Both the position numbers and the translations under genes were made by a program. DNA of 64,000 nt, from NCBI RefSeq assembly GCF_003633895.1, contig NZ_RBID01000016.1, positions 1-64,000 of the forward strand. The letters run 5' to 3'. This DNA comes from Vogesella indigofera. GTDB lineage: Bacteria; Pseudomonadota; Gammaproteobacteria; Burkholderiales; Chromobacteriaceae. Of this stretch, positions 6,443-29,337 are shown piece by piece. Position 1 is the first letter of the stretch. Each line of letters begins with the position of its first letter. The notes below the pieces were generated by a model. The model saw only the letters and a program-made list of their open reading frames with translations, was not told the DNA's origin and made no database searches.

Positions 6443-7012
6443 TCAGGGTTTGTAAGTGGCTTTCTGGATGACGATGGGCTCCATCGGCACATCCTGCATG
6501 CCGCCAATGTAGCCGGTGCGCGACTTGGCAATGCGGTTGACGACGTCCATGCCGGCGGTCACCTTGCCAAACACGGTGTAGCCCCAGCCTGGCGGCGTCT
6601 TGCTGCGGAAATCCAGAAAATCGTTGTTGACCAGATTGATGAAGAATTGCGAGGTCGCCGAGTGCGGATCGTTGGTGCGTGCCATGGCGATGCTGCCGAT
6701 CACGTTCTTCAGGCCGTTGTCGGCCTCGTTGGCGATCGGCGCGCGTGTCGGTTTTTGTGACAGCGCACCGCCGTCGATGGTAAAACCGCCACCCTGGATC
6801 ATGAAGCCGTCAATCACGCGGTGGAACACGGTGTTGTCGTAATGGCCGGCCTTGACGTAGCGGGTGAAATTGTCGACGGTCTTGGGCGCGCTTTGTGGCG
6901 CCAGCTCGACGGTGATCAGCCCCTTGTTGGTCTGCAGCTCCACTTTGGGCGCGGCGGTCGCCAGCAAGGGCAGCAACAGCAAGGCGAGGGCGACAATCTT
7001 CTTCATGGCCAT
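6443..7012 (-). CDS. ppiA: Periplasmic peptidyl-prolyl cis-trans isomerase A (cyclophilin)
   Basis: A 189-residue cyclophilin with an N-terminal signal peptide (MAMKK, then a leucine-rich core and ATAAPK cleavage region), so it folds exported proteins in the periplasm. It has the cyclophilin signature [15 protein letters not shown] and SQFFINLVNND. The start could be ATG 7012 or ATG 7006; both give a working signal peptide. It is the first gene of the ppiA-ppiB-lpxH run, and its promoter must lie in 7013-7174, shared with the divergent flgP promoter region. Confidence 0.93.
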   Translation of the reverse strand: MAMKKIVALALLLLPLLATAAPKVELQTNKGLITVELAPQSAPKTVDNFTRYVKAGHYDNTVFHRVIDGFMIQGGGFTIDGGALSQKPTRAPIANEADNGLKNVIGSIAMARTNDPHSATSQFFINLVNNDFLDFRSKTPPGWGYTVFGKVTAGMDVVNRIAKSRTGYIGGMQDVPMEPIVIQKATYKP

Positions 7013-7100
7013 GGTTTCCGGAGAGTTGAGGCGCGCAGTTTAGCATGAGGCCGGCGGCGATGTGCCAGCCGGCGCGAGCTGCGGCGCGCCCGTCGGCGGT

Positions 7101-7127
7101 TAAAGATTGTGCGGCAACGGCCGATAA
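7101..7127 (+). promoter_or_regulatory. Sigma-28 (FliA) promoter of flgP-flgT
   Basis: TAAAGATT at 7101-7108 and GCCGATAA at 7120-7127 are separated by exactly 11 bases. The consensus is TAAAGTTT-N11-GCCGATAA, so only one base differs. Transcription would start near 7134, about 40 bases before flgP. Confidence 0.88.
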
Positions 7128-7174
7128 AGCGATGAAGCAATAACACGACATGTAATCAGTAGGCGGAGAACGCA

Positions 7175-7873
7175 ATGAAAAAAACGGTTTTGGCAACAAG
7201 TCTGCTGGCACTGGTGTCGGTGACAGCCTGCGCCTCGTCCGCGGCGCCGGCGGCGCAGGAAGCGGCCGGCGAAGGCTGGATGGTGGTTGCCGATGCGCCT
7301 GCCGTGGCGGGAAGCCATGAGCAGCCGGGGATCTCCCGGCAGCCGGTGATGACCCAGGGCGGCGTGATGATGGGCGGCGGCTATGTCGGCCCCTTGTCCG
7401 AGCCGGCAGCCAAGGAAGTGGAAAAATACAACGCACTGCGCATCCGTGTGGTCGGCTACGGCGCGCCGCCGGCCAACCGCAGCCTGTCGCCGGTGCAGCG
7501 CCGCCTGCTGGCGATGCGTGCCTCGCAGCTGGATGCCTATCGCGCAATGGCGGAGCAGGTGCAGGGCTTCAAGCTGTCCGGCAGCAGTACCGTCGGCAAC
7601 ATGATTGCGGCCAACGATAGCTACCGCGTGTTCGTCGATGCCTACCTGCGCGGCGTGCGACTGCTGTCCACCGAGTTCAAGGCCGACGGCAGCAGCGAGA
7701 CCATCGGCGAAGTGGTATTGGACGAAGGCTTCTTCAAGGCTTATCGTAGCGCGCTGGTGACCACCGGCAACGTGGCGACCGCGGCGCGGGTGCTGCCCGC
7801 CGCCGACGGCAGCAAGCTGGGATGTACCGACAGCGGTTGTGTCTACGGTGGCGACTACTATGTTTCGCATTGA
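7175..7873 (+). CDS. flgP: LPP20-family flagellar outer-membrane lipoprotein (FlgP-like)
   Basis: A 232-residue lipoprotein. The signal peptide ends in the lipobox VTAC (Cys 19), so it should be lipidated and sent to the outer membrane. The rest resembles the LPP20 lipoprotein family, to which Vibrio FlgP belongs; FlgP helps form the outer-membrane disk around polar flagella. Two facts support a flagellar role: an almost perfect sigma-28 promoter lies directly upstream, and a FlgT-like gene follows after 8 bases. The start ATG has AGGCGGAG upstream. The gene name rests on this context and on the family, not on a detailed alignment. Confidence 0.72.
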   Translation: MKKTVLATSLLALVSVTACASSAAPAAQEAAGEGWMVVADAPAVAGSHEQPGISRQPVMTQGGVMMGGGYVGPLSEPAAKEVEKYNALRIRVVGYGAPPANRSLSPVQRRLLAMRASQLDAYRAMAEQVQGFKLSGSSTVGNMIAANDSYRVFVDAYLRGVRLLSTEFKADGSSETIGEVVLDEGFFKAYRSALVTTGNVATAARVLPAADGSKLGCTDSGCVYGGDYYVSH

Positions 7874-7881
7874 CGGCGCAG

Positions 7882-9168
7882 ATGAAAACTAAACCATTCT
7901 GGTACGCCGCCCTGTGGGCGGCGTTTTTGTTGGCAGGACCGGCGGCGGCCGAGGTGTATCGCGCCGAAGGCATGGCCTCGCTGGAGTCCGGCCTTGTCGC
8001 GGCGCGGCAGCAGGCGATCGAGGACGCGGTGCGGCAGATGGCGATGACCCACGCCGGCACGCTGCAGGCCACGTCGCGGCTCGATAACGGCGAACTGACC
8101 GAATCGAGCATGACCGGGCCGCTGACGCTGCCCGGTACGCCGCGCGTGCTGCAGGAAAGCCAACGTGACGGGCTGCTGTTTGTCACGGTGGAAGTCGATA
8201 CCGCCGAACCGGTGTCCGCCGCGGAAGCGGCCGGTGCGTCTGCCAGTCAGGCTTGCGCCCGTCCGGCGACACCGGCGGGGCGTTTCCTGACCCGGCGGCT
8301 GGTCAGCACCTATTTCGAGGTAACTCAACCGCAGGATGCCGGTGACCTCGGCAATCTGGCGACCTGGTTGCCGTCCGAACTGTCACGACGGCTGAATGCG
8401 CTGCGCGACGTGCGCGCGCTGGATGCCGGCAACGTGTCGCTGTTCCCCGGCGGCAAGGTGCAGGAGCCGTGGCAGGCCAGCGATGCCGTGCGCGACATCG
8501 GCCGCCGCGAGGAGGTGCAGTTCGTGCTCGCCGGGCGGGTGCTGGATACCGGCGTCACCCGCAAGGAGCCGCGGCTGGGCGCGTTTGGCGGCGCCAGCGG
8601 CAGCGAGGCCGGGCTGTATTACACCGGGCCGCTGGCCGGCCTGTTCGGCGCCTCGGCACGGGTGGTGCCGGTGGAGCGCCGCTTCGCCGTCGAATACTGG
8701 CTGTACGACGCGCTGACCGGCGGCGTGCTGGCCACAGCCACGGTGGCAACGACTGCGCGCGGCGCGGTGCACGACAGCTCGCTACGTGTCTTCGATCTGA
8801 GCCGCTTCCAGCAAAACGACTATGGCCGCAGCGTGGCGACGCTGCTGGATGGCGTTGCCGGCAAGCTGGCGAACACCATGCACTGCCTGCCGTTCGCGGC
8901 GCGGGTGGTGCGGGTGGACGGTGACCGCGTCTACCTGGGCGCCGGCACGCTGGACGGACTGGCCAGTGCCGACCGCCTCATCGTCTACAAGCAGCAGCCG
9001 CAGACCGAGATCCGTCGCGGCGACGGCGTGGTGCTGGGGCTGCCGGAGCGGGTGATCGGCGATGTCGAGCTGCTGCAGGTGCAGCCGCGGCTGGCGGTGG
9101 CGATGCTGCGCAATGCCCGCGGCAAGGTGGATGTCGGCGACTGGGTGCGCTTTCCGGTGCGGCGCTGA
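7882..9168 (+). CDS. flgT: Flagellar assembly protein FlgT-like
   Basis: A 428-residue exported protein with a clear signal peptide (ends [12 protein letters not shown]). The N-terminal domain ([15 protein letters not shown], about residues 33-47) is typical of FlgT, which in Vibrio forms the H ring around the polar flagellar basal body. The C-terminal part has SH3-like features ([22 protein letters not shown]). I chose the ATG at 7882, because the longer frame starting at 7822 would overlap flgP and bury the signal peptide. It shares the sigma-28 promoter with flgP. Transcription probably ends at the inverted AAGGTTGGCCGCA pair 18 bases after the stop. Confidence 0.75.
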
Positions 9169-9185
9169 GTCGCGTTGCACCTCTT

Positions 9186-9223
9186 AAAGGTTGGCCGCAA
9201 GCGTCGTTTTGCGGCCAACCTTT
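9186..9223. repeat. AAGGTTGGCCGCA inverted pair after flgT
   Basis: Two exact copies in opposite orientation (9187-9199 plus, 9210-9222 minus) form a perfect 15-base stem with an 8-base loop and three T at the end. It is placed as a terminator for flgT, and lies before the fbpA promoter. Confidence 0.93.
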
Positions 9224-9290
9224 GCTTTATGTGATGGTGGTTTCACGCGCGGCCGGAACTGATGCAGATCAGTTTTGTTGCAAATTGCTG

Positions 9291-9319
9291 TTGATAACGA
9301 TTCTTGTCTTTATTACAAT
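9291..9319 (+). promoter_or_regulatory. fbpA promoter with overlapping Fur-box-like site
   Basis: TTGATA (9291-9296) and TACAAT (9314-9319) are 17 bases apart, a good sigma-70 promoter. The 19 bases at 9293-9311 match the Fur consensus at 11 of 19 positions, strongest in the left half GATAACGAT. Overlap with the -35 and spacer is what iron repression would need. Confidence 0.6.
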
Positions 9320-9368
9320 CGCTGCCATTGATGCTATGCCTGACAACGGGCTTTTAAGGAGTGTGACT

Positions 9369-10361
9369 GTGAACAAAAAGGTATTGCTTGCCTCGCTGCT
9401 GGCTGTCTTCGCAGGATCCGCTGCTGCGGAAGAAATCGTGGTGTACAGCTCCCGTGCCGAACAGCTGATCAAGCCGCTGTTTGACGCGTACAGCAAGGAA
9501 ACCGGTGTTGCCATCAAGGTCATTTCCGACAAGGAAGGCCCGCTGATGGAGCGCCTGAAGGCAGAAGGCAGCAACTCCCCGGCCGACATCTTCCTGACCG
9601 TGGACGCCGGCAACCTGTGGAAGGCCGAAGACATGGGCCTGTTCCAGCCGGTAAAGTCGGCCGTGCTGAACGGCAACATCCCGGCCAACCTGCGCGACCC
9701 GGACAACAACTGGTACGGCCTGTCGGTCCGCGCCCGTACCATTTTCTACAACAAGAACACCGTCAAGCCGGCGCAGCTGGCTTCCTACGAAGATCTGGCC
9801 AGCCCGAAGTGGAAGGGCAAGCTGTGCCTGCGTAGCTCGAAGAACGTCTACAACCAGTCGCTGGTTGCCACCATGATCGCCGACATCGGCCCGGTGGCCA
9901 CCGAGCGCATGGTCAAGGGCTGGGTCAACAACCTGGCGACCGCACCGTTCGGCAACGACAACGCGGTGCTGGAGGCGATTGCCGCCGGCCAGTGTGATGT
10001 CGGCATGGCCAACACCTACTACTACGGCCGTATCGTCGCCAAGAACCCGGCCTTCCCGGTCAGCCCGTTCTGGGCCAACCAGGCTGGCAAGGGCACCCAC
10101 GTAAACGTGTCCGGCGCCGGTATCGTGCGCTACGCCAAGAACGTGAAGGGCGCGGTGAAACTGCTGGAGTGGCTGTCGTCCGACAAGGCGCAGAACATGT
10201 TCGCCGACGTCAACTTCGAGTATCCGGCCAACCCGAAAGTGAAGGCCGATGCGCTGGTGGCATCGTGGGGCAACTTCAAGCACAACCTGATCAACGTCAA
10301 AGTGGCCGGCTCGAAACAGGCCGAAGCTGTGATGCTGATGGACCGCGTCGGCTACAAGTAA
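9369..10361 (+). CDS. fbpA: Ferric iron ABC transporter, periplasmic iron-binding protein
   Basis: A 330-residue solute-binding protein that captures Fe3+ in the periplasm and hands it to FbpBC. The start is GTG 9369, 8 bases after AAGGAG, giving a signal peptide [21 protein letters not shown]; the frame is open further upstream but has no start signals. The paired tyrosines that bind iron in this family are visible in NTYYYGRI (about 215-222). A Fur-box-like promoter lies upstream. A terminator hairpin follows directly, so more fbpA than fbpBC message would be made, as is common for binding proteins. Confidence 0.93.
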
Positions 10362-13206: not shown

Positions 13207-14061
13207 TTAACCCGCCAGCCAGGTGTGCGGAATGGACTCCAGCCAGGTCTTGATCGAGCGGGCGTCCCGTACCCGCGCCGCCGAGCTGTTGGCGGCCAGC
13301 AGCACGAATACCAGCTTCTGGCTGCCGACTTCGGCTTCCATCACCAGGCAACCGCCGGCTTCGTTGATAAAGCCGGTCTTGGACAGCTCGATCGCCCACT
13401 GGCCTTCACGCACCAGCGCATTGCTGTTCTTGTAGTGCAGCGTGCGGGTGGCGCTCGGCTGTGCCGTGTACTCGGTCATGGTGGTGAACTGGCGGATCAG
13501 CGGATACTGGTTGGCGGCCTTGACCAGGCGTACCAGATCCATCGCCGTGGCGCTGTTGCGCACGTCCAGCCCGGTCGAGTCGTAGAAACTGGCGTTCTGC
13601 ATGCCGATGGCGCGCGCCTTCTGGTTCATGCGCTCGATGAACGCCGGGCGGCCGCCGGGGTAGTAGCGCGACAGTACCGCCGCGGCACGGTTTTCCGACG
13701 ACATCAGCGCCAGCAGCAGCATCTCGCGGCGGGTTAGCGTGGAGCCGACGGACAGGCGCGAGCCGGTGTTCTTCAGGCGGTCGAGTTCCTCGTCGCTGAT
13801 GGTCATCGGGCTGTCCAGCGGCAAGCCGGCGTCCAGCACCACCATCGCGGTCATCAGCTTGGTGATGGAGGCGATCGGCAGCTTTTGCCGGGCATTCTTT
13901 TCGAATACCATCTGCCCGGTGCGGCCGTCGACGATGGCGACCGAGTGCGAGCTTAATTGCGGCTGGGCGGCTTCCGACGGATGATAGCTTGTCGGCTGGG
14001 CGGCCATAATGGCGCCGCTGCTAAGCGCCAGCACGCAAGCAACAAATAAATTCTTTAGCAT
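13207..14061 (-). CDS. pbpG: D-alanyl-D-alanine endopeptidase (penicillin-binding protein 7)
   Basis: A 284-residue periplasmic serine peptidase of family S11 that cuts D-Ala-DAP cross-links in peptidoglycan. It has a signal peptide (about residues 1-21) and the three penicillin-binding motifs: SITK at 65-68 (catalytic Ser 65), SEN at 122-124 and KTG at 228-230. The length matches PbpG rather than DacA/DacC, and the C-terminal membrane-anchoring helix of DacA is missing. It is divergent from uvrB and convergent with fbpC. Confidence 0.9.
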   Translation of the reverse strand: MLKNLFVACVLALSSGAIMAAQPTSYHPSEAAQPQLSSHSVAIVDGRTGQMVFEKNARQKLPIASITKLMTAMVVLDAGLPLDSPMTISDEELDRLKNTGSRLSVGSTLTRREMLLLALMSSENRAAAVLSRYYPGGRPAFIERMNQKARAIGMQNASFYDSTGLDVRNSATAMDLVRLVKAANQYPLIRQFTTMTEYTAQPSATRTLHYKNSNALVREGQWAIELSKTGFINEAGGCLVMEAEVGSQKLVFVLLAANSSAARVRDARSIKTWLESIPHTWLAG

Positions 14062-17505: not shown

Positions 17506-18834
<1,329 letters not shown>

Positions 18835-18863: not shown

Positions 18864-19184
18864 ATGTCCACGCAGGGTATCAATCAGCTATTGGGTGAGC
18901 TGCGCGCCATGTCGTCGCTGGCCGCGGGTCAGGCGCCTGCGGTAGACAAGACCGCTCCCGAAGTCGATTTTTCTGATGTACTCAAGAGCACGCTGGAGCA
19001 GGTCAACCAGGTGCAGAACACTTCACTCGAGCTGCAAAAGCAGTTTGAACTGGGTGAGGAAGGCGTTAACATCCAGGACGTCATGGTGTCGATGCAAAAA
19101 GCAAGTCTGAGCTTCCAGACCATGGTTCAGGCCCGCAACAAGCTGGTTTCTGCCTATCAGGAAATCATGAATACGCAAGTGTAG
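18864..19184 (+). CDS. fliE: Flagellar hook-basal body protein FliE
   Basis: A 106-residue helical protein that joins the MS ring to the rod of the flagellar basal body. The conserved C-terminal block VMVSMQKASLSFQTMVQARNK is clear. The start ATG is preceded by AAGAGG. It is the first gene of a long same-strand flagellar cluster running to fliR and follows the flrC-like regulator. Confidence 0.95.
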   Translation: MSTQGINQLLGELRAMSSLAAGQAPAVDKTAPEVDFSDVLKSTLEQVNQVQNTSLELQKQFELGEEGVNIQDVMVSMQKASLSFQTMVQARNKLVSAYQEIMNTQV

Positions 19185-19244
19185 CGCCGTCTGTTTCGAG
19201 CTTCGGGCCTGCGGCGGTAAGATCAATAATGAAATAACCACTGT

Positions 19245-20963
19245 ATGGCTGAATTGGTCGATAATACTGCGCCTGCTTGGAAGGGGCGTGCCAACGAAGT
19301 GTTGACACGTTTCAATGCCCTTCCCAATAACAAGAAAATCCTGTTCTTCACTGCCATCGCCGCAGTGTTGTCCATCGCGCTTGCCTTGCTGGTATTCAAT
19401 CGCGAACCTCCCTACAAAGTACTGTTTACCGGTCTGGCCGATAGTGACGGCGGCCAGGTCACCGCCGCGCTGCAGCAGATGAACGTGCCATACCAGATTG
19501 GTGACGGTGGCGTGATCTCGGTGCCGAGCGAGCGCGTCTACGATACCCGGCTGAAGCTGGCGACACAGGGCCTACCCAAGGCCGGCGGTGTCGGTTTCGA
19601 GCTGATGGACAAGCAGAAGTTCGGCATCAGCCAGTTTGCCGAGCAGGTCAATTACCAGCGCTCGATTGAGGGCGAACTGGCCCGCACCATCAAGGCGGTT
19701 GCCGTGGTCGACAGCGCGCGCGTGCATCTGGCGATGCCGAAGCAGACGGTTTTCGTGCGTGACCAGCAACAGCCGACAGCATCGGTGATGCTGACCTTGC
19801 GGCCGGGTCGGATTCTGGATGGTGGGCAGATTGCCGGCATCATGCACCTGGTGTCCAGCTCGGTGCCCAACCTGCCGCTGCGCAATGTGTCGATCGTCGA
19901 TCAGGACGGCAATCTGCTGTCCACGGTGCCGGACCAGAATAATGGCTCGCTTGATCGCCGGCAGCTGGATTATGTGCGCCAGATCGAGGCCGACTACACC
20001 AAGCGTGTCGAAACCATTCTCGAGCCGATTTTCGGCAAGGGCAATGCCCGTGCCCAGGTGACGGCCAACGTGGATTTTTCCGAGTCGGAGCAGACCTCGG
20101 AGAGTTTTCGCCCCAATTCGACCCCCAATCCTTCCGCGACCCGCAGCCAGCAGATCAGCGAGACGCTGGGGCGCGACGCCAACCTGCCGTCCGGCGTGCC
20201 CGGGGCGCTGACCAACCAGCCACCATCGCCGGCGTCGGCGCCGCTGACGCTGCCACCGGGCGCCGCGCCCGGTACGGCCACCCTGTCGGGCTTGCCGATG
20301 GGCACCGCCTCCGGCTCGCTGAGTCGCGAAATCACCACCAACTACGAAGTCGACAAGACCATCCAGCACACCAAGTCGCAGAAGGGTGTCATTAAGCGCC
20401 TGACCGCGGCGGTGGTGGTGAACTACAAGATGGTGCCCGACAACCAGGGGGTGTTGAAGGCGACGCCGCTGACGGAGAAGGAATTCGGCCAGATTAATAA
20501 TCTGGTCAAGGAGGCGGTCGGCTTCAATGCCGAACGCGGCGATTCGGTCAACGTGGTCAATGCCAGCTTTGCCGATGCGGTGCCGGTGCTGACGGTGCAG
20601 GACAAGGTGCTGGATTTTGCCAGCAACAATGCCTCCGATTTGCTGAAGTACGGTCTGTTGCTGCTGGCCATCCTCTATCTGCTGTTCGGGGTGGTACGGC
20701 CGATCATGCGCGACGTGGTGAATCCGCCACCGCCGCCGCCGGTGGATGACCTTGAGGCTGCTGCCAGCAGTGGCCGCCTGCTGGCGGTCGCCGGCGAAGA
20801 AAGCGAAGAGGGCGAGTCGGAAGAGGACAGCGACAATCCGTCACCGAAAGAGCTCCAGCGCCGCGTGTTCGAGGCTAATATGCAAAATGTTCGCGAGCTG
20901 GTGAAGTCCGACCCTCGCATGGCCGCACAGATTATCAAGGAATGGATCAGCTCTGATGAGTGA
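19245..20963 (+). CDS. fliF: Flagellar MS-ring protein FliF
   Basis: A 572-residue membrane protein that forms the MS ring, the base on which the flagellum and its export gate are built. It has an N-terminal membrane segment (about 31-52), the ring-building region with GVGFELMDKQKFGISQFAEQVNYQRS, a long proline/serine-rich loop (about 280-360), a second membrane segment (about 463-485), and a C-terminal tail that binds FliG. It overlaps fliG by 8 bases, so the two are coupled. Only a weak ribosome site precedes the ATG. Confidence 0.97.
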   Translation: MAELVDNTAPAWKGRANEVLTRFNALPNNKKILFFTAIAAVLSIALALLVFNREPPYKVLFTGLADSDGGQVTAALQQMNVPYQIGDGGVISVPSERVYDTRLKLATQGLPKAGGVGFELMDKQKFGISQFAEQVNYQRSIEGELARTIKAVAVVDSARVHLAMPKQTVFVRDQQQPTASVMLTLRPGRILDGGQIAGIMHLVSSSVPNLPLRNVSIVDQDGNLLSTVPDQNNGSLDRRQLDYVRQIEADYTKRVETILEPIFGKGNARAQVTANVDFSESEQTSESFRPNSTPNPSATRSQQISETLGRDANLPSGVPGALTNQPPSPASAPLTLPPGAAPGTATLSGLPMGTASGSLSREITTNYEVDKTIQHTKSQKGVIKRLTAAVVVNYKMVPDNQGVLKATPLTEKEFGQINNLVKEAVGFNAERGDSVNVVNASFADAVPVLTVQDKVLDFASNNASDLLKYGLLLLAILYLLFGVVRPIMRDVVNPPPPPPVDDLEAAASSGRLLAVAGEESEEGESEEDSDNPSPKELQRRVFEANMQNVRELVKSDPRMAAQIIKEWISSDE

Positions 20964-21954
20964 CGTCGGTGTTCGCCGCAGTTCCGTACTGCTGTTCAGT
21001 CTTGGCCAGTCGGAAGCGATCGAGGTCTTCAAGTACCTTGGACCCAAGGAAGTACAGAAGCTCAGTCTGGCCATGGCCGGGCTCAATAACCTGAGCCACG
21101 AGGAAGTGGAGAAGGTGGTATCGCAATTCCAGGAGGAGTGCGCGGCGCGCGCCAACTTTGGTGCGACCGACGAGTATCTGCGCAACGTGCTGGTGGAAGC
21201 ACTGGGTCCAGACAAGGCGGCCAACCTGCTGGACAAGATCCTGCAGGGCAACGACCACAGCGGTATCGAAAGCCTGAAGTGGATGGACCCGTCCTCCGCC
21301 GCCGACCTGATCCGCAACGAACACCCGCAAATCATCGCCACCATCATGGTGCATCTGGACCCGGACCTGTCCAGTGCCATTCTGGCCTACTTCCCGGAGC
21401 GGGTGCGCAACGAAGTGCTGATCCGTACCGCGACGCTGGAAGGCGTGCAGCCGCAGGCATTGCGCGAGTTGAACGACGTGTTGACGCAGCTGCTGTCCGG
21501 CGCCGATCGCGTCAAGAAGAGTGCGGCCGGCGGTGTCGGCATGACGGCCGAGATCCTCAACTTCCTCGGCTCCAACGTCGAAGCCTCGGCGCTGTCCTAT
21601 ATCCGCGAGTACGATCCGGAGCTGGCGCAGCGCATTCAGGACAAGATGTTCGTGTTCGAGAACATCCTGGAAATCGACGACCGCTCGATCCAGACCATCC
21701 TGCGCGAAGTGCAGTCCAATTCGCTGGTGGTGGCGCTGAAAGGCACCAGCCAGGAACTGAAAGACAAGATTTTCCGCAATATGTCGTCGCGCGCCGCCGA
21801 GATGCTGCGGGATGACCTGGAGTCGAAAGGCCCGGTCAAGCTGTCCGAGGTCGAGGCCGAGCAGAAGGAAATCCTCAAGATCGTGCGCAAGCTGGCCGAC
21901 GAAGGCCAGATCGTGATTGCAAGCAAAGGTGGAGACGAAGGCCTTGTCGAATAA
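20956..21954 (+). CDS. fliG: Flagellar motor switch protein FliG
   Basis: A 332-residue cytoplasmic rotor protein that transmits torque from the stator and helps set rotation direction with FliM and FliN. The N-terminal domain (SVLLFSLGQSEAIEVFKYLGP) binds FliF. The middle part has the conserved EHPQ motif (NEHPQIIATIMVHL). The C-terminal torque domain carries charged residues (NMSSRAAEMLRDDLESKGPVKLSEVE). The start lies within the end of fliF. Confidence 0.97.
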   Translation: MSDVGVRRSSVLLFSLGQSEAIEVFKYLGPKEVQKLSLAMAGLNNLSHEEVEKVVSQFQEECAARANFGATDEYLRNVLVEALGPDKAANLLDKILQGNDHSGIESLKWMDPSSAADLIRNEHPQIIATIMVHLDPDLSSAILAYFPERVRNEVLIRTATLEGVQPQALRELNDVLTQLLSGADRVKKSAAGGVGMTAEILNFLGSNVEASALSYIREYDPELAQRIQDKMFVFENILEIDDRSIQTILREVQSNSLVVALKGTSQELKDKIFRNMSSRAAEMLRDDLESKGPVKLSEVEAEQKEILKIVRKLADEGQIVIASKGGDEGLVE

Positions 21955-22735
21955 CAACGTCATTCCTGCCGAGTCGCTGGGGCAGTGGCGCAGCTGGACC
22001 ATGGGCGAGCTGGGTAGTGCTGCCGCGGTACCGGAGACGGCGCCGCCCGAGCTGGCGGCGCCAGCGCCACAGCCGGAGGAGCCCCCTGTCGAGGGGGCTT
22101 CGCTCATTATGACGGAGGACGAGCAGGATACGACGTCGCTCGATGCGGTGGCCACGGCCGCCTACCCGACCGCGGCTGAGCTGGAGGCGATTCATCAGGA
22201 GGCGTGGCAGACCGGCTACGACGCCGGCTTGCAGGCCGGCATGCAGGCCGGGGAGGAGCGTGGTCGTGCCGAAGGTGCCGAGCGGGCGCTGCTCGAGGCG
22301 CAGCAGCAGTTCCAGCAGTACTGGCAGCCGCTGTCCACGTTGCAGCAGTCGTTCGAGCAGGAGTTGTCGCTGCTGGGCGCGCAGCTGTCGCAGGAGGTGT
22401 TGGCGCTGGCCGTCAGCTTTGCCGAGAAGATGATCGGCGAAGTGGTACGGCATGACCCCGCGGTGCTGCGCTCGCTGCTGACCGAGGCGCTGGATTCGCT
22501 GGCCGACAGCGTGGCGCAGGTGAAAGTGCAGGCGCACCCGGACGAGCTGGCAACCTTGCAGGCGTTTCTGGGGGAGCAGTATCCGCAGTGGCGCATGCAG
22601 TGGCAGGCCGATGCCACCCTCACGCGCGGCGGCTGCCGCATTGAAACACCGTCCGCGTCCATCGACCTGACGCTGGAAAGCCGCCTGCAGCTGTTGCGCA
22701 AGGGGCTGGGGCTGACGGATGAGCATGCTGATTGA
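21944..22735 (+). CDS. fliH: Flagellar assembly protein FliH
   Basis: A protein of about 263 residues that binds the export ATPase FliI and guides substrates to the flagellar type III export gate. A spaced glycine series ([21 protein letters not shown]) is the typical FliH GxxxG-like helix. The C-terminal half resembles FliH/YscL ([17 protein letters not shown]). The start is unclear: TTG 21944 has GGTGGAG 9 bases upstream and is preferred, while TTG 21917 is also in frame. No ATG is available, which may keep its level low. It overlaps fliG by 11 bases and fliI by 17. Confidence 0.9.
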
Positions 22736-24113
22736 GCGGCAGCGCGACTTCTTGCGCCGATGCGAACAGGCGCTGCGCCCGCTGCCGGCATGGCAGGCGG
22801 AAGGGCGCCTGACGCGAGTAACCGGGCTGGTGATGGAGGCGGTCGGCCTGCGCTTGCCAGTCGGTAGTGCCTGCCAGATCGTGGTGTCGGCCGATTATCA
22901 GGCCGAGGCGGAAGTGGTCGGCTTTGCCGGTGACCGTCTGTACCTGATGCCGCTGAGCAATGTGCACGGCCTGCAGCCGGGGCTTGCCGTGTGCGCGGTG
23001 CCCGAAATCCGGCCGCCACTGTACGACGAACCGGCCGATAGCGGCGGCACGGTACGCATGCTGGGGCGCAAGGTGCCGGTCGGCATGTCGCTGCTGGGGC
23101 GGGTGGTGGATTCGCTGGGCCGGCCGCTGGACGGTGGTGCCGAGCCGATGGCCGAGGCGCTGTACCCGCTGTACAGCCAGCCGCTGAATCCGCTGCGGCG
23201 CTCGCCGGTGCGCGATGTGCTGGATGTCGGTGTGCGCGCGATCAACGGCCTGCTGACGGTGGGGCGCGGCCAACGTTTGGGCCTGTTTGCCGGCTCCGGT
23301 GTCGGCAAGTCGGTGTTGCTGGGCATGATGGCGCGCTTCACCCGTGCTGATGTGGTGGTGGTCGGCCTGATCGGCGAGCGGGGTCGCGAGGTGAAGGATT
23401 TCATCGAGCACATCCTCGGTGCGGAGGGTCTGGCGCGCTCGGTGGTGGTGGCGGCGCCGGCGGACTCGCCGCCGCTGATGCGCTTGCACGGCGCCGCCTA
23501 CGCGACCGCGCTGGCCGAGTACTACCGCGACCAGGGCCTCGACGTGTTGCTGCTGATGGACTCGGTGACCCGTTACGCGATGGCGCAGCGCGAAATCGCC
23601 CTCGCCATCGGCGAGCCGCCGGTCAGTAAGGGCTATCCGCCGTCGGTGTTCGCCAAGCTGCCGCAGCTGATCGAGCGGGCCGGCAATGCCGAAGCCGGCG
23701 CCGGCTCCATCACCGCGTTCTATACCGTGCTGTCCGAGGGTGACGACCAGCAGGATCCGGTGGCCGATTCGGCGCGAGCCATTCTTGATGGCCACTTCGT
23801 GCTGACCCGCGAGCTGGCCGAGTCCGGCCACTATCCGGCGATCGATATCGAGCAGTCCATTTCGCGGGTGATGGTCGACGTCACCACCCCACATCACGTC
23901 AATCTGGCGCGCCGCTTCAAGCAGCTGTTTTCGCGTTACCAGCGCAGTCGCGACCTGATCAACGTCGGCGCCTATGTGCCCGGCTCCGATCCTCTGCTGG
24001 ACGAGGCGATGCGCCGTCACCTGCAGTTGGTCGGCTTCCTGACCCAGCCGATGAACGAATACCACGACTTTGCCTCCTGCCTGACGCAGCTTGAGCAAGT
24101 GCTGACCGCCTAA
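22719..24113 (+). CDS. fliI: Flagellum-specific ATP synthase FliI
   Basis: A 464-residue hexameric ATPase, related to the F1 beta subunit, that energises unfolding and entry of substrates into the flagellar type III export apparatus. Walker [14 protein letters not shown] (about 191-203), the [12 protein letters not shown] block and Walker [21 protein letters not shown] are all present. It overlaps the end of fliH by 17 bases and is followed by fliJ after 9 bases. Confidence 0.97.
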
Positions 24114-24122
24114 GGCTAGGTC

Positions 24123-24560
24123 ATGAGCAAATTCGACCTGTTGATCCGGCTGGCACAAGACAAGCTGGACGAGGCTGCCAAGCGCATGAAGCAGGCGCAG
24201 CAGGCGCAAACGCAGGCGGAGGCGACGCTGCAGCAGGTGGATGCCTTTCTGGCCGACTACCAGCAGCGGGTGCTGCACATGGCGCAGCGTGGCCTCGGTG
24301 TCGGGCAATGGCGGGACGCGCGCCTGTTTCTGCTCAAGCTGGAAGAGGCGCGGCAACAGCAGCAGCACGAGCTGGATCGTTGCGTGCAGCGTTTCCTGCT
24401 GGAGAAGCAGGCCTGGCTCGGCCTGCGCAAGCAGCTGAAGTCCTACCAGGTGCTGCAGGAGCGCGAGACGGAGCGTCTGAGCGTGCGCCAGCGCAAGGCC
24501 GAGCAGAAACAGATGGACGAATTTGCCGCCCGCATCAGCTCCCAGGACAAGGCTGAGTAG
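24123..24560 (+). CDS. fliJ: Flagellar export chaperone FliJ
   Basis: A 145-residue, highly charged protein that is almost entirely predicted coiled coil (KRMKQAQQAQTQAEATLQQV and further heptads). FliJ is the stalk-like partner of FliI and a general chaperone of the flagellar export system. Position after fliI and length fit well. It is the last gene before a sigma-54 promoter that separates the early part of the cluster from fliK. Confidence 0.9.
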   Translation: MSKFDLLIRLAQDKLDEAAKRMKQAQQAQTQAEATLQQVDAFLADYQQRVLHMAQRGLGVGQWRDARLFLLKLEEARQQQQHELDRCVQRFLLEKQAWLGLRKQLKSYQVLQERETERLSVRQRKAEQKQMDEFAARISSQDKAE

Positions 24561-24573
24561 CACGCCCTGCTGC

Positions 24574-24590
24574 TTGGCACAATTCATGCT
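24574..24590 (+). promoter_or_regulatory. Sigma-54 promoter upstream of fliK
   Basis: TTGGCAC at 24574-24580 is a perfect -24 element. A -12 element, ATGCT, follows at 24586-24590, with GG and GC exactly 10 bases apart as sigma-54 requires. Transcription would start near 24600, followed by AAGGAG and the fliK start at 24626. The upstream FlrC-like activator is the natural regulator. Confidence 0.78.
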
Positions 24591-24625
24591 TTTGTCGGGG
24601 TGATGACAATAAGGAGCATGTCTAA

Positions 24626-25744
24626 ATGGCCATTACCGTCCAGTCCGTTTTAAACCTGAGCGACAGCTCGGCCACTCCGAGCCAAAGCTATGTCAGCACG
24701 CCGGACTCCCCTTTTGCCATGTTCTTTGCCAACCAGTTGCAGGCGTTTACCCTCGGGCAGCCGGGCGTGGCGGCGGCCGGCGACAGTGCGCTGCTGGACG
24801 GCATCGGCCAGCAGCCGCGTGCTGCCGCGGCGCAAGACGCTTCCTTGCTGTTGGGCGGCTTGTTTATGCCCGGCAATGCCGCGGCCAACCCGCTGACCAC
24901 CGCTGCCGGCAAGGATGCCGCGGCGCTCTCCGCCCTGCCTGATCCCGCGGCGCTCGGCGAAGCACTGGCGGCGGAAGAGTTGGCCGCACTGGCCGCTGCC
25001 AAAACCAAGGCCGCCAAAGGTGGCGAGACGGCCGGCGCATTGTCGGAACTGGCAGCGCTGACCGGCGACGCCGCCGCTGACGAAGCGCCGGTACTGCCGG
25101 GGCTGCTGGCCGCCGCCAGCAGTGACAAGCGGGCGCTGCGCGCGTTGAAGGATGATGGCCTGTCCGCCGCGGTGGCGGTGCGGCTGGCCATGCGCGAGGC
25201 TGAAGCGGCCGAGGCTGGTTCCGAAGTGAAAACCTTGCCGCCGGCACTTGCCGCCGGGCGGCAGGAATTGCCGACCGACTTGTCCGCCAGCGGCGCCGGC
25301 AAGGAGCTGAAGGAAGTGCTGCTGGGTGGCACCATGGATCGCAGCAAGCAGTGGGGCGAAGCCTTTGGCCAGCAAGTGGTGAAGGCGGTCGAACGGCAGC
25401 TGGACTCCGCGCGCTTCCATGTCACCCCGGAAAAGCTGGGGCCGATTGAAGTCCAGATCTCCATGAACAAGGAGCAGGCGCAGATCGTGGTGACCACCTC
25501 CAACCTGATGGCCAAGGAAATCGTCGAGAGCCATCTGCCGGCGCTGTCGCGGATGATGGAACAGGCCGGTCTGCAGCTGGCCGATGCCCAGGTCTCCTCG
25601 CAGCAGCAGGGCCAGCAACAGCACGGCCAGCAGGCGCAGCAGCAGCGCGGCCGCACCCAGTCCGAGGCGATGTCGCCGCTGGCTGAGCTGGAGTCCGCCG
25701 CACCGGCGGCGACCGTCTCTTCCGGCCTGAGCGTGACCGCCTGA
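24626..25744 (+). CDS. fliK: Flagellar hook-length control protein FliK
   Basis: A 372-residue secreted ruler that measures the hook and switches export from hook to filament subunits. The N-terminal two-thirds are Ala/Leu-rich and low in conservation, as usual. The conserved C-terminal hook-length control domain (about 240-335) includes LGPIEVQISMNKEQAQIVV. A glutamine-rich run (QQQGQQQHGQQAQQQ, about 330-345) follows. A sigma-54 promoter lies just upstream. Confidence 0.93.
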   Translation: MAITVQSVLNLSDSSATPSQSYVSTPDSPFAMFFANQLQAFTLGQPGVAAAGDSALLDGIGQQPRAAAAQDASLLLGGLFMPGNAAANPLTTAAGKDAAALSALPDPAALGEALAAEELAALAAAKTKAAKGGETAGALSELAALTGDAAADEAPVLPGLLAAASSDKRALRALKDDGLSAAVAVRLAMREAEAAEAGSEVKTLPPALAAGRQELPTDLSASGAGKELKEVLLGGTMDRSKQWGEAFGQQVVKAVERQLDSARFHVTPEKLGPIEVQISMNKEQAQIVVTTSNLMAKEIVESHLPALSRMMEQAGLQLADAQVSSQQQGQQQHGQQAQQQRGRTQSEAMSPLAELESAAPAATVSSGLSVTA

Positions 25745-25771
25745 TTGGCCAGCTGTGTCGCAGGCTGAAGC

Positions 25772-25784
25772 AAGGTTGGCCGCA
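25772..25784 (+). repeat. AAGGTTGGCCGCA element, single copy
   Basis: An exact plus-strand copy in the 153-base gap between fliK and fliL, 27 bases after the fliK stop. No inverted partner is present. Confidence 0.9.
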
Positions 25785-25897
25785 AGCTGGAAACGGCTTG
25801 CTGTTTCCCCGGAAATCTACTAAATGGCTGTTCAACTCGACAAGAAATGGAGAAAATAGGGGTTAAGCATTTCTTTTAAACGAGAGCAGGTATTGTC

Positions 25898-26431
25898 ATG
25901 GCCGAAAAAGATAAAAAAGAAGACGTTAAAGAAGCCAAGCCCGCGGCAGGAGGCAATAACAAACTACTCTTGGTTGTCATCGTGTTACTGGTACTGGTAC
26001 TGGCCGCGGTGGGCGGTCTGGCCGCCTATGTGTTCCTGAGCAACAAGTCGGCCGCCGGTGCCGATGCCAGTCATGCCACCGCCGAGCATGCGCCGGAAAA
26101 GAAAGAGAAAAAAGAAGGCCCGCCGGTGTTCGAGAAGCTGGAACCGTTTGTCGTCAATCTGAGCGGTGGCTCGTCGATGCTGCAAATCGAGCTGCAGGCC
26201 GAGTTGTACGACGAAGCCGCCAAAAACAATATGAAAGCCTATCTGCCGAAAATCCGCAGTGCCCTGATCCTGTTGCTGTCGGCCAAGACCGAAGAGGAAC
26301 TGCAGTCGGCGGACGGCAAGATCAAGCTGAAGGCGCAGATCAAGAAAATCATCAATGAGTCGATGGATGCCGGTGAAGAAGAACCGGTTGAAAACGTGCT
26401 CTTCACATCCTTCATCATTCAGTTGCAGTAA
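25898..26431 (+). CDS. fliL: Flagellar basal body-associated protein FliL
   Basis: A 177-residue inner-membrane protein that surrounds and stabilises the stator at the motor. It has a charged cytoplasmic start, one membrane helix (about 26-47), a Lys/Glu-rich linker and a periplasmic domain with FEKLEPFVVNL (about 76-86). The start has GAGAGCAGG upstream. The 153-base gap before it is the largest within the flagellar cluster, so an internal promoter is possible, though I could not identify one. Confidence 0.93.
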   Translation: MAEKDKKEDVKEAKPAAGGNNKLLLVVIVLLVLVLAAVGGLAAYVFLSNKSAAGADASHATAEHAPEKKEKKEGPPVFEKLEPFVVNLSGGSSMLQIELQAELYDEAAKNNMKAYLPKIRSALILLLSAKTEEELQSADGKIKLKAQIKKIINESMDAGEEEPVENVLFTSFIIQLQ

Positions 26432-26433
26432 TC

Positions 26434-27447
26434 ATGGCTGATGAAATCCTGTCCCAGGAAGAGGTCGACGCGCTATTACGCGGCGTGACCGGGGAAGAGG
26501 ACAACGACGGCGCGGACAGCGACAACGGTGGCGTACGGGCCTATGACATCGGCCGCCAGGAGCGCATTGTCCGCGGCCGGATGCCGACGCTCGAGATCAT
26601 CAACGAGCGTTTCGCGCGTAATCTGCGTATCGGTTTTTTCAACTTCCTGCGCCGCAATGCCGAGATCTCGGTCGGGCCTGTGCGGGTGCTGAAGTACAGC
26701 GAGTTCATCCGTAACCTGGTGGTGCCGACCAACCTCAACCTGGTGCACGTCAAACCGTTGCGCGGCACCGGGCTGCTGATTTTCGACCCGGACCTGGTGT
26801 TCCTGGTGGTCGACAACCTGTTTGGCAGCGATGGCCGCTTCCACGTGCGGGTGGAAGGTCGCGACTTTACCCCGACCGAGCAGCGCATCATCCGCAAGAT
26901 GCTGGAAGTGGTGTTTGCCGAGTACCAGAAGGCGTGGGAGCCGGTGTACCCGATCGAGTTTGTCTATCTGCGCTCGGAGATGAATACCCAGTTTGCCAAC
27001 ATTGCCACCCCGACCGAGGTGGTGGTGGCCGCGACCTTCCATATCGAGCTGGGTGCCGGCGGCGGCGACTTCCACGTCTGTCTGCCGTACTCGATGATCG
27101 AGCCGCTGCGCGATCTGCTGGCCAGCAGCATGCAGGCCGACCGTACCGAGGTCGACAACCGCTGGGTCAACCTGATGCAGTACCAGGTGCAGGCCGCCGA
27201 AGTGGAACTGGTCGCCACCCTGGCGCAGACCAAGGTGACACTGGGCGACATCCTCAATCTCAAGGTCGGCGACGTGGTGATGGTGGACGTGGCGGAGAAG
27301 GTGGTGGCCGACGTGTCGGGCATCCCGGTGCTGGAGTGCAGCTACGGCACGGTCTCCGGCAATTACGCATTGAAAGTGGAAACGATACTGTCTGGGGCGC
27401 AGGAGCTGTTTGAGCCGCCACCGAGTGGAGAGCAAGAAGATGAGTGA
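26434..27447 (+). CDS. fliM: Flagellar motor switch protein FliM
   Basis: A 337-residue switch protein. The N-terminal peptide LSQEEVDALL (about 5-14) is the CheY-P docking site. A central CheC-like fold (about 45-230) and a C-terminal SpoA domain (about 250-325) that pairs with FliN follow. It begins 2 bases after fliL and overlaps fliN by 8 bases. Confidence 0.97.
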   Translation: MADEILSQEEVDALLRGVTGEEDNDGADSDNGGVRAYDIGRQERIVRGRMPTLEIINERFARNLRIGFFNFLRRNAEISVGPVRVLKYSEFIRNLVVPTNLNLVHVKPLRGTGLLIFDPDLVFLVVDNLFGSDGRFHVRVEGRDFTPTEQRIIRKMLEVVFAEYQKAWEPVYPIEFVYLRSEMNTQFANIATPTEVVVAATFHIELGAGGGDFHVCLPYSMIEPLRDLLASSMQADRTEVDNRWVNLMQYQVQAAEVELVATLAQTKVTLGDILNLKVGDVVMVDVAEKVVADVSGIPVLECSYGTVSGNYALKVETILSGAQELFEPPPSGEQEDE

Positions 27448-27886
27448 CGAGCAGGGCTTTGATCCGGATTCGGTTGCCGGAGCAGTTGACGAAGAAGTGT
27501 CCATGGACGACTGGGCAGCGGCGATGGCAGAACAGGAAGTGGCCGACACCGCCGCCGCCGAGGTAAAACCGGCGACCAACCTGTTCCAGGACCTGTCCGG
27601 CAGCAGCCAGAGCCAGGCGGTGCCGCAGAACCTGGACATGATTCTGGATATCCCGGTACAGCTGACCGTCGAGCTGGGGCGTACCAAGATCGCGATCCGC
27701 AACCTGCTGCAGCTGGCGCAGGGCTCGGTGGTGGAGCTGGACGGCTTGGCCGGCGAGCCGATGGACGTGCTGGTCAATGGCTGCCTGATCGCGCAGGGTG
27801 AGGTGGTGGTGGTCAACGACCGTTTCGGTATCCGCCTGACCGACATCATTACGCCCGTCGAGCGTATTCGCCGACTACAGAAATGA
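27440..27886 (+). CDS. fliN: Flagellar motor switch protein FliN
   Basis: A 148-residue C-ring component. The C-terminal SpoA domain (MILDIPVQLTVELGRTKIAI through IRLTDIITPVERI, about 70-145) is clear, with an acidic, less conserved N-terminal extension of about 60 residues. ATG 27440 is preferred because GAGTGGAG precedes it and the longer frame begins inside fliM. It overlaps both fliM and fliO. Confidence 0.96.
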   Translation: MSDEQGFDPDSVAGAVDEEVSMDDWAAAMAEQEVADTAAAEVKPATNLFQDLSGSSQSQAVPQNLDMILDIPVQLTVELGRTKIAIRNLLQLAQGSVVELDGLAGEPMDVLVNGCLIAQGEVVVVNDRFGIRLTDIITPVERIRRLQK

Positions 27887-28323
27887 ACCGATTGCTGATT
27901 GTGTTGCTGTTGCTGCCGCTGTCGGTCAGCGCCGCCGTGCCCGCCGCCGATGCGGGCACTTCGCCGTTGTGGGGGCTGGTACAGGTGATGCTGGCGCTGG
28001 GATTGGTGCTGGCGGTGATCGTCGGTGCCGCGTGGCTGTTCCGCCGCGTCAGCATGGGCGGCATGCTCGGACGCTGGCAGCCGGCCAAGGTGGTCAGCGG
28101 CGTGATGGTCGGCCCGCACGAGCGGGTGGTGATCGTCGAGCTGGAAGGGCAGTGGCTGGTGCTGGGCGTGACGGCGAAACAGGTCAACCTGCTGACCAGC
28201 ATGGCGCGGCCGGAAGGCGCCGCCAATGCCGCCGCCGTGCCGGCGGCCACGCCACCCTTTGCCGAATGGTTGGCCGCAGCGCTGGCCAAACACCGCCGAC
28301 CCTCCTCCAACGATACGCCATGA
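27883..28323 (+). CDS. fliO: Flagellar biosynthesis protein FliO
   Basis: A 146-residue inner-membrane protein with a signal-like N-terminus and one further membrane helix (about 29-50), followed by a cytoplasmic domain with VVIVELEGQWLVLGVTAKQVNLL. FliO helps assemble the FliP ring of the export gate. It overlaps fliN and fliP by 4 bases each (ATGA). A one-mismatch copy of the dispersed repeat (ATGGTTGGCCGCA) occurs at 28266-28278 and encodes part of AEWLAAAL. Confidence 0.9.
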   Translation: MNRLLIVLLLLPLSVSAAVPAADAGTSPLWGLVQVMLALGLVLAVIVGAAWLFRRVSMGGMLGRWQPAKVVSGVMVGPHERVVIVELEGQWLVLGVTAKQVNLLTSMARPEGAANAAAVPAATPPFAEWLAAALAKHRRPSSNDTP

Positions 28324-29063
28324 GTAAACTCCAACGATTGGGCGTGCTGGCGCTGTTGCTGCTGCCGCTGGGCAGCCAAGCCGCCGGCTTGCCGATGATG
28401 ACCAGCGCGCCGGATGCGGCCGGCGGGCAAAGCTACTCGCTGAGCCTGCAGATGCTGCTGTTCATGACCTCGCTGAGCTTCATCCCGGCGATGATGCTGA
28501 TGATGACTTCGTTCACGCGCATCATCATCGTGCTGTCGCTGCTGCGCCAGGCGATGGGCACCATGCAGTCGCCGCCGAACCAGGTGCTGATCGGGCTCAG
28601 CCTGTTCCTCTCCATTTTCATCATGTCGCCGACGCTGGACCAGGTGTACGCCAATGCCTGGCTGCCGCTGTCGGAGAACAAGATGTCGTTCGAGCAGGCC
28701 GCCGGCGAGGCGGCCAAGCCGATGAAGGCGTTCATGCTGACGCAGACGCGGGAAAAGGATCTGGCCTTCTTCATCGAGATCTCGCGCTCGCCGGCACCGG
28801 CGACCCCGGCCGAGGTGTCGCTGAAGACGCTGATTCCGGCCTTCGTGATCAGCGAACTGAAAACCGCATTCCAGATCGGCTTCATGATCTTCATCCCGTT
28901 CCTGATCATCGACCTGGTGGTGGCCAGCATCCTGATGGCGATGGGGATGATGATGGTGTCGCCGGTGATCATTTCCCTGCCGTTCAAGATCATGCTGTTC
29001 GTGCTGGTCGACGGCTGGACGCTGCTGCTCGGCTCGCTGGTGCAGAGCTTCGGCGGGAGGTAG
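28320..29063 (+). CDS. fliP: Flagellar export gate protein FliP
   Basis: A 247-residue membrane protein that forms the core of the flagellar type III export gate. It has a cleaved signal peptide (ends GSQAAG), several membrane helices and the family block MMTSFTRIIIVLSLLRQAMG near residue 60. The C-terminal region MGMMMVSPVIISLPFKIMLFVLVDGW is also typical. It overlaps fliO by 4 bases. Confidence 0.97.
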   Translation: MSKLQRLGVLALLLLPLGSQAAGLPMMTSAPDAAGGQSYSLSLQMLLFMTSLSFIPAMMLMMTSFTRIIIVLSLLRQAMGTMQSPPNQVLIGLSLFLSIFIMSPTLDQVYANAWLPLSENKMSFEQAAGEAAKPMKAFMLTQTREKDLAFFIEISRSPAPATPAEVSLKTLIPAFVISELKTAFQIGFMIFIPFLIIDLVVASILMAMGMMMVSPVIISLPFKIMLFVLVDGWTLLLGSLVQSFGGR

Positions 29064-29066
29064 ACC

Positions 29067-29336
29067 ATGACGCCAGAATCGGTCATCACCCTGATCCAGA
29101 ATGCGCTGTTCATCCTGATCATCGTCGCCGCGCCGCCGCTGGCGGTGTCGCTGCTGGTCGGCCTGCTGGTCAGCATCCTGCAGGCGGCGACCCAGATCAA
29201 CGAGATGACGCTGACCTTTATCCCCAAGCTGATCGCCATGTTCCTGGTGCTGGTGCTGGCCGGGCCGTGGATGCTGACCACGCTGATGGACTACACCACG
29301 CGGCTGTTCCAGAGCATTCCGCTGGCCATCGGCTGA
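29067..29336 (+). CDS. fliQ: Flagellar export gate protein FliQ
   Basis: An 89-residue protein with two membrane helices; four copies join FliP and FliR in the export gate. The motif LVSILQAATQINEMTLTFIPK (about 35-55) is diagnostic. GGGAGG precedes the ATG. It ends 1 base before the fliR start. Confidence 0.97.
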   Translation: MTPESVITLIQNALFILIIVAAPPLAVSLLVGLLVSILQAATQINEMTLTFIPKLIAMFLVLVLAGPWMLTTLMDYTTRLFQSIPLAIG

Positions 29337-29337
29337 C

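Follow-up and report, generated by a model that had tools for sequence, protein, structure and literature searches.

When in the assembly of a flagellum, and for which motor, does a betaproteobacterium make the ring proteins FlgP and FlgT? The question is raised by a two-gene unit, flgP-flgT, of the freshwater bacterium Vogesella indigofera (Chromobacteriaceae), which lies in positions 1 to 64,000 of contig NZ_RBID01000016.1 (assembly GCF_003633895.1), the whole stretch of 64,000 nucleotides (nt) that was analyzed and that is called the window below. Rings of FlgP and FlgT, sigma-28 promoters and internal operon terminators are already known. Published accounts place FlgO, FlgP and FlgT of V. 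cholerae in class III, which depends on sigma-54 (PMC6504787). In Aeromonas, flgT is transcribed in a fliA mutant and is not transcribed without FlrA or FlrBC (PMC4960245), and in Plesiomonas, FlaM binds the flgO and flgT promoters (PMC11242183). The flgT promoter of V. fischeri is independent of FlrA (PMC3948606).

We report herein that a near-perfect box for sigma-28 (FliA) precedes the flgP-flgT unit of V. indigofera and recurs before flgP in its relatives. From this box and the features described below, we infer that the unit would supply a reduced ring to the primary, probably proton-driven motor, that the ring would be made after the hook, and that a putative attenuator would limit FlgT. 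We assign this reading a probability of roughly 0.6. Since the known flgT and flgOP genes are mostly of class III, late control would represent a rewiring. The literature matches listed, which leave subscription journals mostly outside their scope, include no work that deals with FlgP or FlgT in Chromobacteriaceae, places flgPT under sigma-28 or describes a terminator within flgT. Nor did those matches show, together in one betaproteobacterial family, late control, a terminator-like element in flgT, a lack of detected FlgO and MotY, and stators of which none is assigned to PomA or PomB.

The promoter before flgP

The box occupies positions 7101-7127 of the forward strand (TAAAGATTGTGCGGCAACGGCCGATAA), with a -35 element, TAAAGATT, at 7101-7108, an 11-nt spacer, and a -10 element, GCCGATAA, at 7120-7127. 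It departs by one mismatch from the sigma-28 consensus, TAAAGTTT-N11-GCCGATAA, and its end lies 47 nt before the flgP ATG at 7175. At up to three mismatches, 0.09 matches are expected by chance in the 64-kb window. A scan of the genome (3.6 Mb, 20 contigs) returned the flgP box as the sole 1-mismatch site, together with two sites with two mismatches and nine with three. Both 2-mismatch sites adjoin flagellar genes, one being 40 nt before flgM and the other 74 nt before fliC; none of the nine 3-mismatch sites was found, by eye, upstream of a flagellar gene. As a reversed-pattern control gave 7 genome matches versus the 12 real ones, the 3-mismatch class is near chance. Both FliA and FlgM are encoded in the genome (two FliA proteins and FlgM scored above cut-off). 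The initial annotation had described a promoter one base off consensus, 48 bases before a lipoprotein gene; the match proved to be the best in the genome, and the distance is right to one base.

For comparison, 36 named relative loci were joined to the window to give a set of 37, drawn from eight named genera plus some unplaced strains; because these loci are related, their counts do not represent independent events. Boxes with 0, 1, 2, 3 and 4 mismatches were found in 4, 7, 15, 7 and 3 loci, respectively (cumulatively, 26 loci at ≤2 mismatches, 33 at ≤3 and 36 at ≤4), and in these 36 loci the box stands 35-83 nt before the flgP start used. With 500 scrambled consensuses, at most 0 loci were matched at ≤2 mismatches and at most 4 at ≤3. 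At ≤2 mismatches, the 11-nt spacer was recovered in 25/34 loci and each of eight other spacers in 0/34 (the 34-locus tests, for the spacer and for sigma-54, leave out L061, L072 and L075, whereas the 37-locus box count takes in all). Across the 36 sites, which were chosen for similarity, T1, A3-A4-G5 and C22-G23-A24-T25 are identical and the spacer bases drift almost freely. Sites with ≤3 mismatches numbered 32 within 120 bp before flgP versus 8 elsewhere (592 kb, both strands). This comparative footprinting strongly supports sigma-28 (class IV) control of flgP-flgT, and with it the earlier description of the pair as a late unit.

Two other kinds of promoter were sought and rejected. A search of 34 loci for a sigma-54 promoter of flgP gave no signal: the best mismatch averaged 3.21, and permuted patterns averaged 3.54 with a minimum of 2.79. 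No sigma-70 promoter was found upstream of flgP, the single sigma-70-like match in 6900-9400 being downstream of flgT. An A/T-rich element follows the sigma-28 box at about 7130-7160 and occupies the same place in L055, L056, L057 and L060. It reads TATAAAATGA in some Vogesella species, and might belong to the leader or act as a second, weak promoter.

The two ring proteins and their motor

The flgP gene (7175-7873, forward strand) has a probable ribosome-binding site, GGCGGAG at 7162-7168, which was recognized in the sequence and lies 6 nt ahead of the ATG. Its product, of 232 amino acids, contains an LPP20 domain (PF02169, E 1.8e-11), as the initial annotation had stated, and a lipobox whose cysteine, Cys19, is invariant in 20 aligned FlgP rows (alignment A3, in which rows started at a lipobox). 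With phmmer, the best match among FlgP chains of solved flagellar structures had an E of 8e-8. Because the AlphaFold model is poor (mean pLDDT 57.9, long low-confidence ends) and a fold search with it returned nothing at E ≤0.001, FlgP was identified from its sequence. The LPP20 domain and the lipobox together predict an outer-membrane lipoprotein. The lipobox is apparently absent from FlgP of Crenobacter intestini and C. caeni (L072 and L075, which are outside alignment A3). In addition, the C-terminal tail of FlgP in the family (7823-7870 here) carries a nearly invariant cysteine pair, C217 and C222, and terminates in a sequence resembling YxSN[FY]Y.

The flgT gene (7882-9168, forward strand) begins 8 nt after the flgP stop and encodes an exported ring protein of 428 amino acids. 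Two of its domains, FlgT_N (E 3.9e-8) and FlgT_M (E 1.5e-9), score above cut-off (PF16548 and PF16539); FlgT_C has no match in this protein and is present in 10 of 22 relatives. With an AlphaFold model of mean pLDDT 74.5, the two best Foldseek matches were FlgT of the Vibrio LPHT ring (E 3.1e-22) and a FlgT crystal structure (E 1.6e-21), over 424-428 alignment columns. The TM scores by query length are 0.52 and 0.46 and the rmsd is 12-16, domain placement differing between the model and the matched structures. The FlgT-like identity given in the initial annotation is thus confirmed, and the protein appears to have N, M and C domains, the first two by Pfam and the third as judged from the fold of the model and the 10/22 relatives. 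Among the 22 relatives, 46 columns are invariant; C125 and C335 are invariant in 22/22 aligned FlgT relatives (alignment A2), and a disulfide between distant parts of the protein is possible. FlgT of the window and FlgT of V. alkaliphila share 98% identity.

FlgT matches were found in 61/61 Chromobacteriaceae genomes, representing 10 genera. Five are partial or broken: only the middle part is matched in G036 and G037 (one genus, 35% identity), the match in G044 runs from residue 85, that in G009 is spread over two contigs, and that in G045 has two internal stops. In 36/36 named loci, flgP is upstream of flgT, the start codon being wrongly chosen in some of them (L072, L074, L075 and L085 among them). 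In a sample of 399 genomes of the order, FlgT_M was found in 43 (42 above cut-off) and FliG in 269, and all 43 FlgT genomes are within the 269 FliG genomes (hypergeometric 1.3e-8, kinship ignored). From the order sample, 22 of 30 loci were read as lying outside the family, the remaining 8 being family members; FlgP is beside FlgT in 16 of the 22, and 6 are without FlgP within the flank.

Partners known from other rings are fewer. FlgO (PF17680) has 0 matches in this genome, in agreement with the initial annotation, which had called it missing. It occurs in 39/399 order genomes, and 7/43 FlgT-positive genomes have it. MotY (PF18393) was found in 0/61 family genomes, a positive control yielding 64/274 class genomes. 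In 3/13 sampled family genomes, FlgO is encoded on a different contig from flgT (G051, G004, G038 and others are listed). Six of the 39 FlgO-positive order genomes are outside the FliG list (three strong matches, three weak), so the domain, judged by its distribution, may not be strictly flagellar.

To which flagellum does the pair belong? The flagellar genes of the genome are spread over several contigs. The initial annotation had placed flgP-flgT far from the main flagellar cluster, which proved incorrect: the primary fli region begins 8.3 kb downstream of flgT in the same window. At its head is a sigma-54-dependent response regulator of the FleR/FlrC/FlbD kind (17506-18834, forward strand), for which none of the best 25 of 96 families reaches its cut-off. 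The fli cluster of the primary flagellum follows at 18864-30114 on the same strand; fliE and fliG were assigned by NCBIfam, FliG_C by search, and fliF, fliH, fliK, fliL, fliM, fliN, fliO and fliR by eye from open reading frames, with fliI, fliJ, fliP and fliQ not read. A second flagellar cluster, on another contig (L135, C3:189001-209000), has its own FliA, MotA and LafU/MotB-like gene and further fli and flg genes read by eye; no flgP-type sigma-28 box was found in the 20 kb read. Assignment of flgPT to this second, lateral-type cluster was rejected: 10 of the 13 family genomes in the order sample have a single FliG match and still have FlgT, and for that reason flgPT goes with the primary (polar-type) system.

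Three stator B subunits were found: MotB and MotD score above NCBIfam cut-offs, and a third, LafU/MotB-like, is below them. The A subunits read are MotA and the product of a PRK09109 gene, which adjoins FliA of the primary system and flhF, and which we take to be MotC; the PRK09109 model scores above cut-off and the PomA model below its own. No stator subunit found was assigned to PomA or PomB, although not all A subunits were sought. When compared with Protein Data Bank chains, the stator subunit on C1 matches PomB far below MotB; MotD matches PomB at 90 bits, which is below 8ucs/6ysf/6ysl (128-132) and above enterobacterial-type MotB (48). By stator family assignment, the primary motor is probably proton-driven. 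The stator genes seem to be split, with a motC-type gene beside fliA (L143, C7) and motD and motB on other contigs (L133 on C6 and L134 on C1, respectively); on the contig with motB, no motA was read next to it. No sigma-28 box was found in stator regions L133 and L134 at the thresholds used, and we do not claim that flgPT is co-expressed with the stators.

The hairpin at the start of flgT

Positions 7904-7932 of the forward strand, among the signal-peptide codons of flgT, comprise a hairpin that resembles a terminator and a T-rich tract. The initial annotation had mentioned neither this element nor the class III control of most known flgT and flgOP genes. The stem (7904-7924) has 9 pairs, 8 of them G-C, and reads ACGCCGCCC-TGT-GGGCGGCGT, followed by TTTTGTTG; it lies 22-42 nt into flgT and 31 nt past the flgP stop, and folds at -18.3 kcal/mol (z -4.2). 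Under the criterion used (≥7 pairs, 6 G-C pairs, 5 T of 8), the start of flgT carries the element in 31/37 loci, versus 2.2 expected when synonymous codons are redrawn from the gene's own usage and the protein is kept. If the threshold is relaxed to 5 G-C pairs, the count rises to 33/37. Elsewhere the element is rare: it was found in 0/327 windows of the rest of flgT, in the first 135 nt of 4/401 other genes of these loci, and in the same interval of 0/19 other genes with a similar alanine-rich (AA-x-AA-like) peptide. Within the 36 loci, the forward strand contains 66 such elements, of which 30 are ≤60 nt from the start of the FlgT match. In L069, the stem sequence differs and the hairpin and T run are retained. 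A covariation score was reached by 0/500 shuffles, and sliding the partner by -3 scores higher because the element has a 3-base repeat. Redrawn codons thus indicate that a G+C-rich stem and a T run are kept beyond the demands of the protein.

The natural reading of this element is a partial terminator, a putative attenuator that would give more flgP than flgT. In Clostridia, internal terminators set the subunit ratios of ABC transporters (PMC9045158). The present hairpin resembles those in being placed between two genes of a unit, where it is presumed to lower the second, and differs in falling within the coding region of that second gene, among the codons for its signal peptide.

A second hairpin, of 17 pairs with a weak T tail, lies 16 nt past the flgT stop (9185-9224, forward strand; -27.8 kcal/mol, z -7.1) and is likely the end of the flgP-flgT unit. 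A hairpin and T run 3' of flgT were found in only 7/37 loci.

Timing and role of the proposed ring

It is established that FlgM keeps FliA (sigma-28) in check while the hook is being built. Completion of the hook and export of FlgM would therefore let FliA transcribe flgP-flgT together with fliC and flgM. Some polymerases would stop at the flgT hairpin, leaving more flgP than flgT, and ribosomes starting at flgT would open the hairpin. Lipidated FlgP would sit under the outer membrane and exported FlgT would ring the L and P rings; with neither FlgO nor MotY, the pair would brace the motor or keep stator units in place. A ring that forms only after the hook should be dispensable for passage of the hook through the outer membrane, in contrast to the situation in V. 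alginolyticus or V. fischeri.

Since FlgP and a full-length FlgT are both present, a ring or disk at the outer membrane is the natural inference, and to this extent the suggestion of an outer-membrane disk or H ring in the initial annotation stands. The structure would not be the Vibrio H ring as defined, FlgO not having been found in this genome nor MotY in the family, and none of the stator subunits found being assigned to PomA or PomB. The Vibrio assembly comprises an H ring of FlgO-FlgP-FlgT and a T ring of MotX-MotY. What V. indigofera shares with it is a FlgP with an LPP20 domain and a FlgT with the same fold over its full length; it differs in the two partners not found (FlgO in the genome, MotY in the family), in its stator genes of the MotB, MotD and MotC kind, and in its FlgP, which has 232 amino acids versus 143 in Vibrio chain 8z5n. 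In place of the sigma-54/FlrC control of V. cholerae, there is a sigma-28 box. The Fla1 motor of R. sphaeroides likewise has FlgP and FlgT without MotY, and the stators of V. indigofera are probably of the proton type as well; the FlgT ring of R. sphaeroides is formed on a proton motor without MotX and MotY (PMC7277832). The basal disk of Campylobacter jejuni also contains an LPP20-domain FlgP (phmmer, 3.1e-5 for 9hmf, a motor entry of that species), but FlgT was not found in epsilonproteobacteria (PMC5758724). As in Aeromonas, flgT lies outside the polar flagellar regions; unlike here, the genes of Aeromonas and Plesiomonas are of class III.

Several points weigh against a late, attenuated ring on a proton motor. 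Loss of FlgP in R. sphaeroides blocks hook assembly and hence FlgM export (PMC7277832), which is hard to reconcile with purely late expression, and its loss in V. fischeri blocks hook or filament formation (PMC7990780). Were FlgP needed for the hook, purely sigma-28 expression would lead to a deadlock, and early basal expression of flgPT is therefore possible. The ion type proposed for the motor is drawn from stator family assignment. Crenobacter luteus (L081) has no box before flgP (7 mismatches), and the choice between C and A at consensus position 2 was made after the relatives had been inspected. Beyond the family, 15 of the 16 FlgP-FlgT loci were scored for box and hairpin, L104 being left out where the region was not covered. 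The box is at 3 mismatches in 3/3 loci of f32, at 4 in 1/1 of f21 and at 5 in 1/1 of f15, and in f5 0/10 loci have it at ≤4. Sigma-28 control is thus not universally tied to flgPT; with the box clear in just 3/15 outside loci, late control appears to be a trait of Chromobacteriaceae and one other family. The hairpin was found in 0/15 outside loci, is absent from L061, L071, L072 and L075 even at 5 G-C pairs (4/37), and did not stand out in a terminator scan of 6900-9400, which gave 2 sites versus a shuffle average of 2.1. Paired changes are few (13/240 cells, mostly one pair), and the rows had been selected by the presence of the hairpin, for which reason the synonymous-codon test is the strict one. 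The argument from subunit ratio is soft, FlgP and FlgT chains being 1:1 in the solved Vibrio entries 8z5n/8z60 and 2:1 in 9yec.

How the timing conflict is resolved decides between the proposed late ring and a standard Vibrio-type H ring that aids outer-membrane penetration, with early basal or secondary transcription of flgPT and sigma-28 providing only a late boost. Such a ring would agree with the importance of FlgT or FlgP for assembly in V. alginolyticus (PMC7175336), V. fischeri (PMC7990780) and R. sphaeroides (PMC7277832), and the A/T-rich element after the box in some Vogesella species might serve the early transcription. We nevertheless consider it unlikely, given that FlgO was not found in the genome nor MotY in any of the 61 family genomes, and that neither a sigma-54 signal nor a sigma-70-like site was detected upstream of flgP. 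In C. jejuni, flgP mutants have normal-looking flagella that have lost function (PMC7990780). By analogy with this FlgP and with FlgT of R. sphaeroides, we prefer a ring for anchoring or torque to early basal expression. That FlgP and FlgT form no ring at all, acting instead as loose assembly or anchoring factors or persisting as a vestige, would fit the lack of detected FlgO and MotY and the long low-confidence ends of FlgP. This seems quite improbable for a FlgT that is full length by fold, has its 46 invariant columns and is kept in 61/61 genomes, the more so as the H ring of R. sphaeroides forms without MotX and MotY (PMC7277832).

A more open matter is the nature of the flgT hairpin, which could instead be an RNA structure that tunes translation, export-linked ribosome pausing or mRNA stability. 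Its position, 22-42 nt into the coding region and in signal-peptide codons, would suit such a function, and structure alone would also account for the codon choice. The T-rich tract is what favors a terminator: in 31 loci, as the search required, it follows the stem, the synonymous control, in which the tract is counted, predicts 2.2, and a purely translational structure needs no T tract. We regard the RNA-structure account as a real, if less probable, competitor. As for the promoter, 3-mismatch matches do occur near chance frequency in the genome, but a fortuitous box, with the unit transcribed in some other way, is very hard to square with conservation that is tied to the spacing in at least eight named genera while the spacer drifts, and with the excess of sites (32 versus 8) before flgP; we give this explanation almost no weight.

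The proposed late ring also bears on a published correlation. In a survey of Gammaproteobacteria, rings of FlgO, FlgP and FlgT are linked to sodium stators, and FlgT is recorded in 0 of thirteen dual-proton-stator species (PMC6375700). Chromobacteriaceae, which pair FlgP-FlgT with MotB-, MotC- and MotD-type stator genes and in which MotY was not detected, run against this correlation. Late expression further predicts that hooks will already have passed the outer membrane when the ring forms; relocating a single promoter could then tell apart the two jobs proposed for such rings, namely, penetration and torque or anchoring. If the element in the signal-peptide codons is truly a terminator, then one stretch of DNA would serve both protein export and subunit ratio. 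Taken jointly, these proposals describe a FlgP-FlgT ring of Chromobacteriaceae that would have shifted from sigma-54 (class III) to sigma-28 (class IV) control, that would operate with neither FlgO nor MotY on a proton motor having MotAB and MotCD stators, whose subunit ratio would be set by a terminator in the flgT signal-peptide codons, and that would be added late for torque or anchoring, independently of outer-membrane penetration, an exception to the link between H rings and sodium stators. We advance this full combination tentatively, as it is less probable than the narrower reading given at the outset.

Boxes of the same type also occur away from flgP. In the window, an endopeptidase-like gene (13207-14061, reverse strand) has no box upstream at ≤3 mismatches. 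In Aquitalea, sigma-28-like boxes with 1 and 2 mismatches were found on the reverse strand at L068:10957-10983 and L084:10960-10986, respectively, and that in L068 is about 190 bp before a similar gene, resembling a PBP7-type D-Ala-D-Ala endopeptidase.

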